Source: Negativicutes bacterium
Lineage (GTDB): Bacteria > Bacillota > JAAYKD01
DNA: 33,356 bases
Direction: 5' to 3'
Assembly (NCBI GenBank): GCA_021372785.1
Contig: JAJFTT010000052.1
Span: 1-33,356, forward strand
Positions 234-33,351 of the stretch are shown in pieces (the stretch's first letter is position 1; every line of letters starts with the position of its first letter). Below the pieces are notes generated by a model that did not search any database, was not told the DNA's origin, and saw nothing but the letters and a program-made list of their open reading frames with translations. The translations under genes and the position numbers were made by a program.

Positions 234-1826
234 TTATTCATGTAGATTCAATTCCAAATATTCATCATAAGACATTTTTCTGTCGATGATGCCATCCGGC
301 GTAATTTCAATGATGCGGTTGGCAATAGTTTGCACAAATTCATGATCATGTGAGGCAAAAAGGAGAGTGCCAGAAAAGTTAATCAAGCCATCGTTGAGTG
401 AGGTGATCGATTCCAGATCCAGATGATTGGTCGGCTCATCCAGTAGGAGAACATTGGCATTGCTGAGCATCATCTTGCATAGCATACAGCGGACTCGCTC
501 GCCGCCGGAAAGAACGCTTGCTTCTTTTTGAGATTCTTCGCCGGAAAACAATAATCTGCCCAGATAGCCTCTGATGAAGCTTTCTGCCTGTTCCACGGAA
601 AACTGACGCATCCAATCAACAAGATTGAGCGGAACGTTTTGAAAGAACTCGGTATTGTCCTTGGGGAAGTAAGCTTGGGAAGTTGTTACCCCCCATTTGA
701 ATTCACCACTGTCTGCCGTCAGCTCGTTCATCAGAATTTTAAACAGGGTCGTTTGCGCTTGTTCATTCGTCCCAACAAAAGCAACCTTATCGCCTTTATC
801 CAGCTTAAAGCTGATCTGATTCAAAAGCATTTGGCCGTTCATCGTTCCCGTCAGGTTAGCCACATTTAACAGTTCGTTGCCGGCTTCTCTTTCAGGTTTG
901 AAACCTACGTAAGGATATTTTCTGGAGGAAGGTTTGATATCTTCAATCGTCAGTTTCTCCAGCTGCTTTTTTCGGGAGGTGGCTTGTTTTGATTTGGAGG
1001 CGTTGGCGCTGAAGCGATCAATAAAATCCTGTAAATCTTTGCGCTTCTCTTCCGCTTTTTTGTTTTGATCACGCTGCATTTGCAGTGCTAACTGACTGGA
1101 ATGATACCAAAAATCATAATTACCATTGTAAATTTGTATTTTGCCATAATCAACATCGGCGATGTGCGTGCATACTTTATTAAGAAAATGTCGGTCATGT
1201 GAAACCACAATGACGGTGCTTTCAAAATTGGAGAGGAAATTTTCTAACCAGGCGATCGCTTTCAGATCCAGATGGTTGGTTGGTTCATCCAACAGCAAGA
1301 TGTCTGGTTGACCAAATAAAGCCTGAGCCAACAAGATTTTTATTTTTTCATCACCATTCAATTCTTTCATCAGCTTGTGATGCAGCGATTCTTCTAAACC
1401 CAGTCCAGTCAGGAGTGATGCCGCTTCCGGTTCTGCCTCCCAGCCATGCAGTTCATCGAATTCAAATTCCAATTCGGCAGCTTTGATTCCGTCTCCATCA
1501 GTGAATTCTGCTTTTCCGTAGATCAGATCTTTTTCTTGCATGATTTGAAAAAGCCTTGCGTGTCCCATGATAACCGTTTGCATGACTTCATACTCATCAA
1601 ATTTAAAATGATCCTGTTTTAGAACCGCTAAGCGCTCACCGGGGGTGATGAGGACTTCACCTTGGTTTGGTTCAATTTCTCCCGTCAATATCTTGAGAAA
1701 TGTAGATTTCCCGGTTCCATTGGCACCAATTAAGCCGTAACAGTTGCCATGTGTAAATTTGATATTCACATCATCAAACAATTTGCGGCCGCCGTATCTT
1801 AAACTCACATTGCTTGTACTTATCAC
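234..1826 (-). CDS. ABC-F family ATP-binding protein (YbiT/YkpA-like)
   Basis: This is a soluble ABC-F protein with two nucleotide-binding domains and no membrane segment. The family acts on ribosomes as translation factors or antibiotic-protection proteins. Domain 1 has Walker A GANGTGKST (residues 34-42), the divergent signature LNGDEKIK and Walker B LLLDEPTNHLD. A charged linker follows at about 240-300. Domain 2 has a standard signature LSGGERVR and LLLDEPTNHLD, but its Walker A reads GTNEQAQTT (352-360), with the catalytic lysine replaced by glutamine. About 530 residues matches the YbiT/YkpA group. I chose the GTG at 1826 because AAGGTGG lies 8 bases upstream and the family usually begins near MISxSNVSLRYG; a GTG at 1838 is the alternative. 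The gene is monocistronic. Its exact substrate group is uncertain. Confidence 0.93.
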   Translation of the reverse strand: MISTSNVSLRYGGRKLFDDVNIKFTHGNCYGLIGANGTGKSTFLKILTGEIEPNQGEVLITPGERLAVLKQDHFKFDEYEVMQTVIMGHARLFQIMQEKDLIYGKAEFTDGDGIKAAELEFEFDELHGWEAEPEAASLLTGLGLEESLHHKLMKELNGDEKIKILLAQALFGQPDILLLDEPTNHLDLKAIAWLENFLSNFESTVIVVSHDRHFLNKVCTHIADVDYGKIQIYNGNYDFWYHSSQLALQMQRDQNKKAEEKRKDLQDFIDRFSANASKSKQATSRKKQLEKLTIEDIKPSSRKYPYVGFKPEREAGNELLNVANLTGTMNGQMLLNQISFKLDKGDKVAFVGTNEQAQTTLFKILMNELTADSGEFKWGVTTSQAYFPKDNTEFFQNVPLNLVDWMRQFSVEQAESFIRGYLGRLLFSGEESQKEASVLSGGERVRCMLCKMMLSNANVLLLDEPTNHLDLESITSLNDGLINFSGTLLFASHDHEFVQTIANRIIEITPDGIIDRKMSYDEYLELNLHE

Positions 1827-1876
1827 TGATCCATCCACCTTATAATTTATAGTTTCAAATTTAACTGAACTTTTAT

Positions 1877-1889: not shown

Positions 1890-1991
1890 CTAACCAATTA
1901 ATCTACCTGTGCCAACACCCCCGTCCCCCTGGTACACGCGCTAACCAATTAATCTACCTGTGCCAACACCCCCGTCCCCCTGGTACACGGG
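1890..1991. repeat. 2 x 51 bp tandem repeat containing a G/C-rich 25-base core
   Basis: Copy 1 (1890-1940) and copy 2 (1941-1991) differ at a single base (1939 versus 1990). Each contains a 25-base core (1908-1932 and 1959-1983) rich in runs of C, with near-complementary ends TGTGCC and GGTACA that could fold as a short hairpin. The same 25 bases occur inverted at 33327-33351. The composition differs from the surrounding sequence. The ATPase remnant starts directly at the right end of copy 2. It resembles dispersed intergenic repeats of Bacillota genomes, but the family is not identified. Confidence 0.85.
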
Positions 1992-2836
1992 TACTGGCAT
2001 ACCTTGCCAAGATTGAAAAGGAATCGAATCACCCCTTAACGAAAGCTGTGGTAGAATCAATCGGAGCCGCAGATTTCTATCCTGTGCAAGAAACCAATGC
2101 GGTGAAAGGCAGCGGTATTATAGCGAAGGTAGCCGGTCATCGGGTCGCGGTCGGCAATCTCGCACTGATGCGGCGGGAAAATGTACAGTTCAATGAAAAA
2201 GCGAGCACCGATCTGGTGCGTTTGGTACAAAGCGGCAGTTCACTCGTGCTGATGGCGCTGGATGGTGAATTAGCAGTTCTCATGGGTATTCGTGACCAGA
2301 TTCGCCCGGGTGTGAAAGCGGATCTTGAAAAGCTGAAAGAATTAGGTGTGAAGAACCTGATTGTGCTTTCGGGAGATCATCAGGGAACCGTTGATTTGGT
2401 TGCCCGTGAACTTGGCTTGACAGAAGCCCATGGTCACATGCTGCCGGAAGATAAGGCGGCCTATATTAAAATGCTGCAGTCCAAAGGGCAAATTGTGGCT
2501 TTTGTGGGCGATGGAGTCAACAACAGTCCTTCTCTGGCTTTGGCGCAAATTGGTATTGCCATGGGCAGTGGGACAGATATTGCGATTGAAACCTCCGATG
2601 TTGTCCTGATGAACTCAGATTTCAGCCGGTTGCCTCATGCTCTCGGCTTAACCAAAGCGATAGCGCGTAACATGCGGCAAAATATTATCATCGCAGTGGG
2701 CGTTGTCTTCTTCTTGCTGGCCAACGTTTTCTTCAGCGAATGGATGAACATGTCCATAGGGATGCTGGTCCACGAAGCGAGTATCTTAGCCGTTATTTTC
2801 AATGGCATGAGGCTGCTACGCTACGCAATAAATTAA
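1991..2836 (+). pseudogene. 5'-truncated heavy-metal P1B-type ATPase
   Basis: Recognisable protein begins at about 1991 in the same frame as the GTG-initiated ORF at 2048. It starts with the nucleotide-binding-domain motif ESNHPLTKAV and continues through LSGDHQGT, GDGVNNSP and GIAMGSGTD to two C-terminal membrane segments ending NGMRLLRY. The metal-binding N-terminus, the first six membrane helices, the actuator domain and the DKTGT phosphorylation loop are all missing, so it cannot pump metal. HEAS in the last helix recalls the HEGxT motif of P1B-4 pumps, but the metal cannot be assigned. The hinge reads GDGVNN where the family has GDGxND. Homology stops at the edge of the 51-bp repeat, which points to a deletion, rearrangement or assembly join there. 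An HMA-domain gene follows after 39 bases. Confidence 0.85.
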
Positions 2837-4143: not shown

Positions 4144-4200
4144 CATCAGTATAACCTGGGCGCAGGGCAGACGGAACCGGAAGCAAACCCCGGAAAAACA

Positions 4201-4230
4201 GGATCGCTTAATAAACCGGATCGCTTAATA
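4201..4230. repeat. Short direct repeat in the leader
   Basis: GGATCGCTTAATA occurs at 4201-4213 and again at 4218-4230, a period of 17 bases, just before a small ORF. It may be a slippage duplication or a paired protein-binding site. Confidence 0.7.
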
Positions 4231-5687: not shown

Positions 5688-6551
5688 ATGTCTGAAAAGC
5701 CTGTAATCGCATTGCTTTATGACTTTGATAAAACACTCTGTACAAAAGATATGCAGGAGTACAGTTTTATTCCGGAGGTGAACATGGAACCAGCTGCTTT
5801 TTGGCTGGAATCCAATGGCTTAGCGAAAGAGCAGAAAATGGATCGCATTCTGGCTTCGATGTATTTGATGCTGCAAAAAGCAAAGAAAGCCGGCGAACCG
5901 GTTTCACGGGATAACTTTGTTACCTTCGGCAGCGCTTTACAATTTTTCCCGGGGGTGGAGAGTTGGTTTGACCGCATCAATCGTCTGGGGGAAACCATGC
6001 AGATGACTGTTGAGCATTACATTATCTCCTCCGGTTTACGTGAAATTATCGAAGGTTCCAGTATTTATCCGCATTTTCGGGAGGTGTTTGCCAGTGAATA
6101 TTATTACGACGAAAAAGGTGATGCTTGCTGGCCAAAAAACATGGTCAATTATACCACCAAAACGCAATTTTTATATCGGGTCAACAAAGGTGTGCTCGAT
6201 GTCTCCAATGATGACGATCTGAACAAATTTAAGGCGCAGGAAGAACGTGCAGTGCCTTTTCGTAATATGATTTATATTGGTGATGGCTTAACCGATGTGC
6301 CATGCATGCATTTGGTCAAAGAAAACGGCGGTTATTCCATTGCCGTTTATCAGAAGGGGCGAAGAGAAGCGGTGGAAGAACTGCTGACGCATGAACGAGT
6401 CGACTTTCTTGTCCCGGCGGATTACTCTGAACACTTTGAGCTGGATGAAATTGTTCAGGATATCATTCGCACCATGGCAATGGTGGAAGGTTTAAAACGG
6501 AAGAACCAGGAGCAGCTGATGCAGATTCGATCAAAACCGAAAAAGAGTTAA
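5688..6551 (+). CDS. HAD-superfamily phosphatase-like hydrolase
   Basis: This 287-residue cytoplasmic protein carries the four HAD motifs: DFDKTL near residue 13 (nucleophile and acid aspartates), ISSG in motif II, a lysine in NYTTKTQFLYR for motif III, and GDGLTDVPC for motif IV. The arrangement resembles phosphoserine-phosphatase-like HAD enzymes with a helical cap between motifs I and II, but the substrate cannot be told from the sequence. The C-terminal tail is charged (KRKNQEQLMQ). AAGGGG lies upstream of the ATG. A decayed GGDEF fragment begins at the base after its stop codon, so any former downstream partner is gone. Confidence 0.9.
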   Translation: MSEKPVIALLYDFDKTLCTKDMQEYSFIPEVNMEPAAFWLESNGLAKEQKMDRILASMYLMLQKAKKAGEPVSRDNFVTFGSALQFFPGVESWFDRINRLGETMQMTVEHYIISSGLREIIEGSSIYPHFREVFASEYYYDEKGDACWPKNMVNYTTKTQFLYRVNKGVLDVSNDDDLNKFKAQEERAVPFRNMIYIGDGLTDVPCMHLVKENGGYSIAVYQKGRREAVEELLTHERVDFLVPADYSEHFELDEIVQDIIRTMAMVEGLKRKNQEQLMQIRSKPKKS

Positions 6552-31511: not shown

Positions 31512-31557
31512 TATCGGTATGACAGTGACAGCAATCGAGAGAGGAAGGAGTCTAGCG

Positions 31558-33306
31558 ATGAGAAAGACAAAAATAGTTGTTACCCTGGGACCGGCGATTC
31601 AAGACCTGGAGATGATGAAGAAGCTTTTTTTGGCCGGAGCCAATATTGTCAGATTAAATTTCTCCCATGGCAACCATGCAGAACATCTGGTCAGAATCAA
31701 TATGGCCCGGCAGGCGGCAAAAGAATTGGGTTTACGGATTCCCATCATGTTGGATAATAAGGGACCGGAAATCCGCATCGGCACCTTTGCCAAGCAAAAA
31801 ATCAGTTTGCAGCAAGGAGATCGCTTCTGCTTGACAACCCGCGCTGTCATCGGCGATCAAACGATGGTAACCGTAGAATACGAGGCGATGCCGCGTGAAG
31901 TAACGGCGGGGAGCATGATTCTGCTGGATGACGGCAACTTAAGCATGCGTGTCATAGAAGTGCAAAACGGCAGCGATATTATTTGTGAAGTACTCAACAG
32001 CGGCGAATTATCCGACCGTAAAAAAGTCAATCTGCCCGGAGCGAAAATTTCCATTCCGGCGGTCAACCCGAAAGATGTAGAGGATATTCTGTTCGGCATT
32101 GAGCATAACCTCGATTTCGTGGCTGCTTCCTTTATCCGTAAGGCGGAAGATGTGCTGGAAATCCGCAGGATCATTGAGGATGCCGGCGGTAATATGAAGA
32201 TTATTGCCAAAATCGAAAGTCAGGAAGGTCTCGATAACCTGAGCGATATTTTGAAAGTCACCGACGCTTTGATGGTTGCCCGCGGGGATTTGGGGGTGGA
32301 AGTACCGTCGGAGCAAGTGCCGATTGCGCAGAAGGAAATGATCCGCCTCTGCAATCAGAAGGCAATTCCGGTGATTACCGCCACTCAGATGCTGGATTCC
32401 ATGATCCGCAATCCGCGGCCTACCCGCGCCGAGGCCAGTGATATCGCCAATGCGATCCTGGACGGCACCGACGCCATCATGCTGTCCGGCGAAACGGCCA
32501 GCGGCAAATATCCGCTGGAATCGGTGCAAACGATGGCGCGGATTGCGGAGAAAACAGAATCTGCCTGGCCGATGAAGTTGAATTGGCAGAATAACCGCCT
32601 GACGACAGAGGTCTCTGTTACCGATGCCATCAGCCATGCCGTTTGCCAAAGCGCCAATGATCTAAAAGCCGATGCGATTATTACGGCCACTTCCTCGGGC
32701 AGCACAGCACGCAATGTAGCGAAATATCGTCCGCAGGCGCGTATTATTGCCGTCACATCGCATGAAGCCACAGCCAATCAGCTTTGCCTGGTTTGGGGTA
32801 TCACGCCGTTGGTAGTACCGAATATGCCCGATACGGACTCCATGGTAAATGAAGCCGTTGGAACGGCTCTGGATGCCGAATGTATTGCTAACGGTGACCT
32901 GATCATTCTGACGGCAGGCGTACCGGTCGGCATACCGGGCAGCACCAATATGATGCAGATCGTCACAGTCGGTGATATACTGGTACGAGGCGTTTGTATT
33001 GGCGAGTGCAATGTGGTTGGCAGAGCGGTGGTTGCTTTCTCTCCGGAAGAAGCGGAAGCCAAGATGCACCAAGGCGATATCCTGATCACCAAGAGCGTCG
33101 ACGGAGATTACCTGCCCGCCATCAAAAAGGCTGCCGCACTGGTGACAGAAGAAGGCGGTTTATCCTCTTCCGGAGCCATCTTTGGGTTGAACCTGAATAT
33201 ATTGGCCATGGTTGGCGCAGAAAACGCCACCTCCTTTATCAAGACCGGCCAGGAGATTACGGTCGATCGGTACGGACGTATTTTCCGCGGTAAAGTCAGA
33301 GCGTAA
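31558..33306 (+). CDS. pyk: Pyruvate kinase with C-terminal PEP-utilising-like domain
   Basis: Pyruvate kinase (582 residues) converts phosphoenolpyruvate and ADP to pyruvate and ATP. Visible are KIVVTLGPA at the N-terminus, LDNKGPEIR (its glutamate is typical of potassium-dependent enzymes), IIAKIESQEGL with the catalytic lysine, VARGDLGVEVP and ATQMLDSMIRNPRPTRAE. After about residue 475 the extra domain found in Bacillota enzymes follows, related to PEP-utilising mobile domains; its usual TSH motif is SSS here (536-538). AAGGAG lies 8 bases before the ATG at 31558, so I prefer it over the in-frame ATG at 31519. It stands alone behind its own promoter. No pfk gene is adjacent in the window. 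Confidence 0.96.
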   Translation: MRKTKIVVTLGPAIQDLEMMKKLFLAGANIVRLNFSHGNHAEHLVRINMARQAAKELGLRIPIMLDNKGPEIRIGTFAKQKISLQQGDRFCLTTRAVIGDQTMVTVEYEAMPREVTAGSMILLDDGNLSMRVIEVQNGSDIICEVLNSGELSDRKKVNLPGAKISIPAVNPKDVEDILFGIEHNLDFVAASFIRKAEDVLEIRRIIEDAGGNMKIIAKIESQEGLDNLSDILKVTDALMVARGDLGVEVPSEQVPIAQKEMIRLCNQKAIPVITATQMLDSMIRNPRPTRAEASDIANAILDGTDAIMLSGETASGKYPLESVQTMARIAEKTESAWPMKLNWQNNRLTTEVSVTDAISHAVCQSANDLKADAIITATSSGSTARNVAKYRPQARIIAVTSHEATANQLCLVWGITPLVVPNMPDTDSMVNEAVGTALDAECIANGDLIILTAGVPVGIPGSTNMMQIVTVGDILVRGVCIGECNVVGRAVVAFSPEEAEAKMHQGDILITKSVDGDYLPAIKKAAALVTEEGGLSSSGAIFGLNLNILAMVGAENATSFIKTGQEITVDRYGRIFRGKVRA

Positions 33307-33326
33307 ATAACGAGCCAAAGAGCGAG

Positions 33327-33351
33327 CCAGGGGGACGGGGGTGTTGGCACA
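33327..33351. repeat. Inverted copy of the 25-base repeat core
   Basis: These 25 bases are the exact reverse complement of the core at 1908-1932 and 1959-1983. The flanks differ: here GAGCCAAAGAGC precedes it. It lies 21 bases after the pyk stop and 5 bases before the window end. Confidence 0.9.

Follow-up and report, generated by a model that had tools for sequence, protein, structure and literature searches.

A dispersed family of hairpin repeats with a constant loop, linked to a Y1-type transposase gene, in a Negativicutes bacterium

What is the 51-bp sequence that stands twice in tandem near one end of this stretch of DNA, directly beside a broken gene, and whose core returns inverted at the other end? 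The window analysed here is the whole contig C52 (33,356 bp) of a source genome of 2,096,002 bases in 74 contigs. Its relevant features are listed below.

234..1838, minus strand: intact ABC-F ATPase gene, on the far flank of the tandem repeat from the ATPase remnant
1890..1940, no strand: tandem unit, copy 1, 51 bp, made of CTAACCAATTAATCTACC, the REP hairpin and GCG
1908..1936, minus strand: REP hairpin unit, with GGGGACGG on the minus strand and the stem TGTACCAG/TTGGCACA (one mismatch and one wobble)
1941..1991, no strand: tandem unit, copy 2, 51 bp, one base different from copy 1
1959..1987, minus strand: REP hairpin unit of the second tandem copy, its right edge abutting the truncated ATPase gene
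1985..2836, plus strand: heavy-metal P-type ATPase remnant (C-terminal part only; ORF 2048-2836), starting at the repeat edge
31519..33306, plus strand: pyruvate kinase gene with a PEP-utiliser domain, directly followed by the third REP copy
33323..33351, plus strand: third REP hairpin unit, just past the pyruvate kinase stop codon (33306) and 5 bp from the contig end

A first-pass annotation, made from the letters alone, had described two tandem copies that differ at one base and an inverted copy of their core at 33327-33351, exactly as we find them. The tandem copies occupy 1890-1940 and 1941-1991 and are identical but for the base before the last (ACACGCG versus ACACGGG), and the 25-mer TGTGCCAACACCCCCGTCCCCCTGG occurs without mismatch at 1908-1932 (+), 1959-1983 (+) and 33327-33351 (-). 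The full repeat unit is a 29-nt hairpin, TGTGCCAA-GGGGACGGGGGTG-TTGGCACA when read in the GGGGACGG direction, whose canonical form has an 8-bp stem and a 13-nt loop and which is imperfect in the window copies. An alignment of 29 copies shows almost no change in the loop and the right arm; it is the left arm that varies between places, chiefly five and six bases ahead of GGGG. Stems of the window copies are slightly degraded, and with TGTACCAG as their left arm these copies fold only weakly as single hairpins. The imperfect terminal complementarity noticed in the core is the decayed form of a perfect 8-bp stem, and the loop is the conserved element. Before the third window unit stands an echo of half a unit (acgagccaaa, about 33310-33319). 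Such truncated tandem echoes of the left half precede many copies (for example gaaccagggtgaaccagGGGGACGG; window 33310-33330, L037:2490-2512, L039:2350-2371, L034:6640-6670); around RAYT genes, 19 of 133 instances have an upstream echo of their left half and nine a downstream echo of their right half. A 17-bp tandem repeat at window positions 4196-4230 (2.1 copies of AAACAGGATCGCTTAAT) is unrelated to the REP unit.

The core is dispersed far beyond the window, as the annotation had supposed, so the outcome that it named as refuting a dispersed family, a core present nowhere else in the genome, does not hold. We found 14 exact copies of the 25-mer in the source genome and 28 with at most three mismatches, while the reversed-pattern control gave none; the shorter core GGGGACGGGGGTGTT gave 29 matches with at most two mismatches, against three in its control. 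Nine copies lie within about 110 bp of the ends of seven contigs (C19, C20, C25, C30, C52, C54 and C74), where about 0.2 would be expected by position (28 x 2 x 74 x 110 / 2,096,002). This accumulation indicates that the window ends at an assembly break in the repeat, and copies at the ends of seven of the 74 contigs support the earlier suggestion that the family breaks assemblies. Closely spaced doublets facing each other occur at three places in the source genome, one with a folding energy of -41 kcal/mol (z -11.8). Extragenic position was judged by eye for some copies; several overlap gene 3' ends, where many copies sit, and some supply the last codons and the stop of a gene. A CRISPR array was rejected, as the copies are mostly scattered and a spacer pattern was not seen.

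The first-pass annotation had also proposed that a Y1-type transposase gene would carry the same repeat beside it, and such a gene exists. The source genome holds four Y1-type genes or fragments, one of which is a full-length RAYT of this type (C36:146747-147490, minus strand). It is bracketed by the repeats in inverted orientation, with one copy on the 5' side and two directly at the 3' end, where the RAYT stop codon falls within the repeat. The protein matches Pfam Y1_Tnp (E 1e-12), and its best NCBIfam match is the REP-associated tyrosine transposase family (NF047646) at 77.7 bits, below the cut-off of 80. It has an HxH motif (H63, H65) and a tyrosine (Y120) in RYIHQNP; among 17 homologues, both histidines are invariant and the tyrosine nearly so. 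The C-terminus contains a conserved S-RQIARxTGI stretch. Pfam helix-turn-helix matches to it are weak and none is above its cut-off, and the C-terminal helices are confident in a homologue model. By its domain anatomy, the protein resembles the RAYTs of group 1, or TnpAY1 subclass 2.1. The only sequence-related solved structure in the PDB is 4ER8, TnpAREP bound to a REP hairpin. A model of the Desulforamulus putei homologue (L074; 51% identical; mean pLDDT 92), which has extra C-terminal helices, likewise has 4ER8 as its top PDB fold match (E 5e-8; TM-score 0.78 by target). The RAYT is thus predicted, as modelled on this homologue, to have a TnpAREP-like fold. In E. coli TnpAREP, GTAG is read by W94, E100 and H101 (PMC6006769); a conserved FQxR[FY]xSExVE stretch of the present proteins has F, S and E in their place.

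We collected homologous RAYTs from the genomes of relatives and from 80 named genome loci, mostly of Bacillota with a few from other phyla. The collection was made with an alignment as query, since the single RAYT protein as query gave no match; a plasmid search returned 12 distant RAYT matches. In an unbiased count of 8-mers within 250 nt on each side of the 80 loci, GGGGACGG was the commonest on the 5' side (36 of 80 loci, sense) and ranked in the first three on the 3' side (35 of 80, antisense), compared with four to nine of the 80 loci in control segments 1000-1500 nt away. Of the 95 loci with full flanks, 89 have the more general motif GGGAC[AG][GT] within 250 nt, oriented as expected, on one side or both, and 63 have it on both, whereas the rate in far segments is 9% per segment-strand. 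It usually lies in the loop of a hairpin whose stem differs from locus to locus. Arm pairing across loci averages 5.12 bp, against 3.51 +/- 0.13 bp when the right arms are shuffled (maximum 3.96 in 500 shuffles), and the arms on the two sides of one locus share 7.2 of 10 bases, compared with 3.2 of 10 between different loci. Neither GT[AG]G nor CGTC was found at the hairpin foot in any of 80 hairpins with arms of at least 6 bp around RAYTs.

Three loop classes (GGGGACGG, GGGGACGT and GGGGACAG) were mapped onto a tree of 100 RAYTs, in whose loci AG is counted 13 times, GG 52 times and GT 12 times. The class changes 10 times on the tree, against 23.3 +/- 1.2 times after shuffling (minimum 19). 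Arm identity declines with RAYT distance from 6.5 to 2.6 of 8 bases, and the difference between close and far pairs is 2.26, compared with 0.02 +/- 0.28 when shuffled. Thus, the loop is conserved, while the stem changes by lineage, stays complementary and tracks the RAYT tree; as the loci share ancestry, these tests show tracking rather than cause.

The same association is seen genome-wide. Across the 199 genomes of the phylum that were scanned, GGGGACGGTTCT was counted 1191 times and its reversed control about 75 times. At least two copies are present in 47 of the 62 genomes with a homologous RAYT and in 12 of the 137 without one (Fisher p 2.5e-21, a value that overstates independence because the genomes are related). 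Seven genomes in which no RAYT was detected hold at least five copies each, which may reflect RAYT loss or missed genes. The motif is present 100 times in genome G197 and 96 times in genome G063, where the control gives none. The 3.2-Mb genome G035 has 29 RAYT matches, mostly fragments, and 130 copies of GGGGACGGTTCT (L051, L069, L207). In G063, the inverted pairs of neighbours no more than 1.2 kb apart are all '+-' (27 pairs) and never '-+'; 12 of these pairs are spaced 45-55 bp, and some of those at 800-1000 bp bracket RAYT genes. The G063 copies have a mean stem pairing of 6.37 bp, against 3.44 +/- 0.18 bp shuffled, and group by stem into several families that share one loop, among them TGCGACA, TTGTCAAT, ATGCAAGT and GTGGACAA. 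The window copies are ordinary members of this RAYT-linked, REP-like family.

We infer, with a probability of about 80%, that the repeats are a REP/REPIN family of hairpins and paired hairpins that a cognate RAYT has spread. The cognate enzyme would be the single-strand-DNA HUH transposase encoded at C36:146747-147490(-). The repeat would fold into a hairpin on the lagging-strand template. In this hairpin the RAYT would recognise a constant tag in the loop, which takes over from the GTAG at the 5' foot of canonical REPs, and an address in the stem that is specific to the lineage. The enzyme would then cut beside the hairpin through its tyrosine, and single or paired hairpins would be copied to new sites, mostly intergenic or at gene 3' ends. 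In the window, one copy may have been locally duplicated in tandem beside the gene that is missing its first half; another ends the contig because the assembly cannot bridge the repeat. If the stem is a RAYT-specific address, several families that share the loop but differ in stem can coexist in a single genome. More broadly, the group-1-type RAYTs of Bacillota, with a few relatives in other phyla, probably have their own REP class, with the loop tag GGGAC[AG][GT] and a fast-changing, co-evolving stem; it would have been overlooked until now because its constant tag lies in the hairpin loop, not at the foot.

We looked for direct traces of mobility between congeners. Of 11 doublet sites of G063 sought in its congener G188, seven could be aligned and none was a clean empty site; most are filled by a complete repeat or part of one, one holds a larger insert, and in one a doublet with different arms and a different spacer lies between the same flanks. 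At one site shared by two congeners (L265 and L295), doublets with other stems and spacers lie between conserved flanks, which suggests that one repeat family was replaced by another. In the absence of a clean empty site from this one congener comparison, mobility is inferred; from the annotation's proposal of dispersed palindromes mobilised by a RAYT, the dispersal and the RAYT linkage stand, whereas active mobilisation is a likely explanation.

Could the RAYT and the repeats that bracket it instead form an autonomous mobile element (TIRtron or IS200-like), with the dispersed hairpins as its MITE-like remnants? In its favour, the RAYT gene is enclosed by repeats arranged '+-' like the short doublets, as if a gene had been placed within a REPIN; some genomes contain more than one RAYT copy or fragment (29 matches in G035, nine in G063); and such genes have been named TIRYT (Di Nocera 2013, PMC3733652). 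However, the source genome has one full-length RAYT for about 28 repeats, a set of identical RAYT copies was not found there, and the matched RAYTs of G063 belong to divergent families, each with its own stem, rather than being recent copies of one another. IS200/IS605 elements have many near-identical transposase copies and ends that are not inverted, unlike the single full-length gene and the inverted bracketing repeats seen here. We regard such an element as unlikely. It is very unlikely that the repeats accumulate for a function of the host, as hairpins that end transcription or stabilise mRNA or as sites bound by proteins, and that their link to the RAYT is incidental. The many copies at gene 3' ends, including those that give the last codons and stop, and the very stable fold of paired copies would suit such a role, but it fails to explain the oriented bracketing in most of the 95 loci, the co-occurrence with RAYTs and the co-variation of stem and RAYT, and a conserved T run after the hairpin is absent.

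The broken gene beside the repeat bears on a third explanation, an assembly artefact: two contig ends that do not belong together would have been fused through the tandem repeat, and the truncated ATPase would be the product of this misjoin. The annotation was right that the gene is broken: ATPase homology begins at 1985, directly at the repeat edge, and covers profile positions 279-560 of 560, so that a C-terminal part is cut exactly at the repeat. An intact homologue in genome G010 has 620 aa and is 68% identical. The N-terminal half was sought across the rest of the source assembly and not found, which, like the seven contig ends that break in the same repeat, would be expected of an artefact. 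The remnant, however, is without the phosphorylation site DKTGT and reads GDGVNNSP in place of the GDGVNDSP of the intact homologue, as expected for a decaying gene, and this favours a real pseudogene over a misjoin. Unique flanking bases inside the 51-bp tandem unit also speak against a misjoin, and the repeat family is real regardless. An artefact here is hardly credible in our judgement. The repeat may have caused the ATPase deletion; as a sign that the family drives rearrangement, which the annotation had raised, the truncated gene is suggestive only.

Our preferred reading, a REP/REPIN family spread by its RAYT, can be compared with known systems. Di Nocera et al. (2013, PMC3733652) described TIRYTs, RAYT-like genes between inverted repeats that contain GGGGWSAS. 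There as here, inverted repeats with a G-rich octamer flank a RAYT-like gene; TIRYT repeats are sometimes multicopy and paired, and the GGGGACAG loop class fits GGGGWSAS exactly. The GG and GT classes do not fit it, and the commonest class here, GGGGACGG, departs from it at position 7. Moreover, the octamer lies here in the loop of a self-complementary hairpin with a lineage-specific stem, and dispersed copies are numerous. This suggests that TIRYT inverted repeats, at least in Bacillota, are hairpins with a loop-borne tag and members of dispersed families.

Quentin et al. (2018, PMC6006769) placed 20 of 26 TIRYT genes in subclass 2.1 and found no REP-like sequences near subclass 2.1 genes by automatic or manual search. 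The RAYTs studied here share with that subclass, especially 2.1.2, the HUH core, the Y-x-x-x-NP motif and a patchy spread over many phyla, and they may also share its helical C-terminal extension resembling a helix-turn-helix or Bac_DnaA_C. They differ in the hairpins that accompany most homologues (89 of 95 with the loop motif), with a loop tag and without a GTAG foot. Canonical GTAG REPs and REPINs of group 2 and 3 RAYTs (PMC3116915, PMC8266576) are likewise dispersed palindromes of 20-40 nt, often form inverted doublets, flank a Y1 transposase gene and comprise a separate family for each RAYT; here, a constant loop replaces the constant foot (GT[AG]G in 0 of 80). CGTC REPs (Di Nocera et al. 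2013) recall the loop octamer, which contains CGTC on its other strand. However, CGTC is in those repeats an unpaired terminal tag and the repeats are not transposase-linked, whereas the present ones are RAYT-linked and have a CGTC foot in 0 of 80. We searched openly licensed papers for the 12-mer GGGGACGGTTCT and its complement; none that dealt with repeats came up, which is weak evidence. A constant loop with a lineage-specific, co-varying stem and no GTAG foot appears to be undescribed in that literature.

The published classification leaves the largest RAYT subclass without REP partners, so that another function is conceivable for it. Should hairpins tagged in the loop be those partners, REP copying would include this subclass too, and the pairing of a constant loop with a stem that can be exchanged would provide a clean, testable model of how a single-strand transposase chooses its substrate. 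Such repeats can be found simply, by searching for the loop octamer and then testing stem complementarity, and they explain assembly breaks in such genomes.

Contig C54 of the source genome (L034) carries further elements. A second palindrome family, GGGAACGGTCTTGACCGTTCC (L034, for example at 6426, 14860 and 19316, and L043:2138-2290), is followed by degenerate C/T-rich tracts. It was rejected as part of the same family, as its sequence is different and is without the GGGGACGG loop. These palindromes are part of composite modules that end in a REP; because all of them end in the repeat, no empty site was obtained from them. Amid the repeats and modules lie a Wadjet-like operon with JetD_C and DUF6063 domains (L034:6697-14353) and an AbiE-like pair (L034:15878-17640), which together are a possible defence island. 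Repeat-encoded C-terminal tails such as QGDGGVGT (L034:6697-11121(-), L034:15878-16663(-) and L033:5479-6054(-)) are found on a 1474-aa protein of the Wadjet-like operon, an AbiEii-like protein and a hemerythrin-domain protein.
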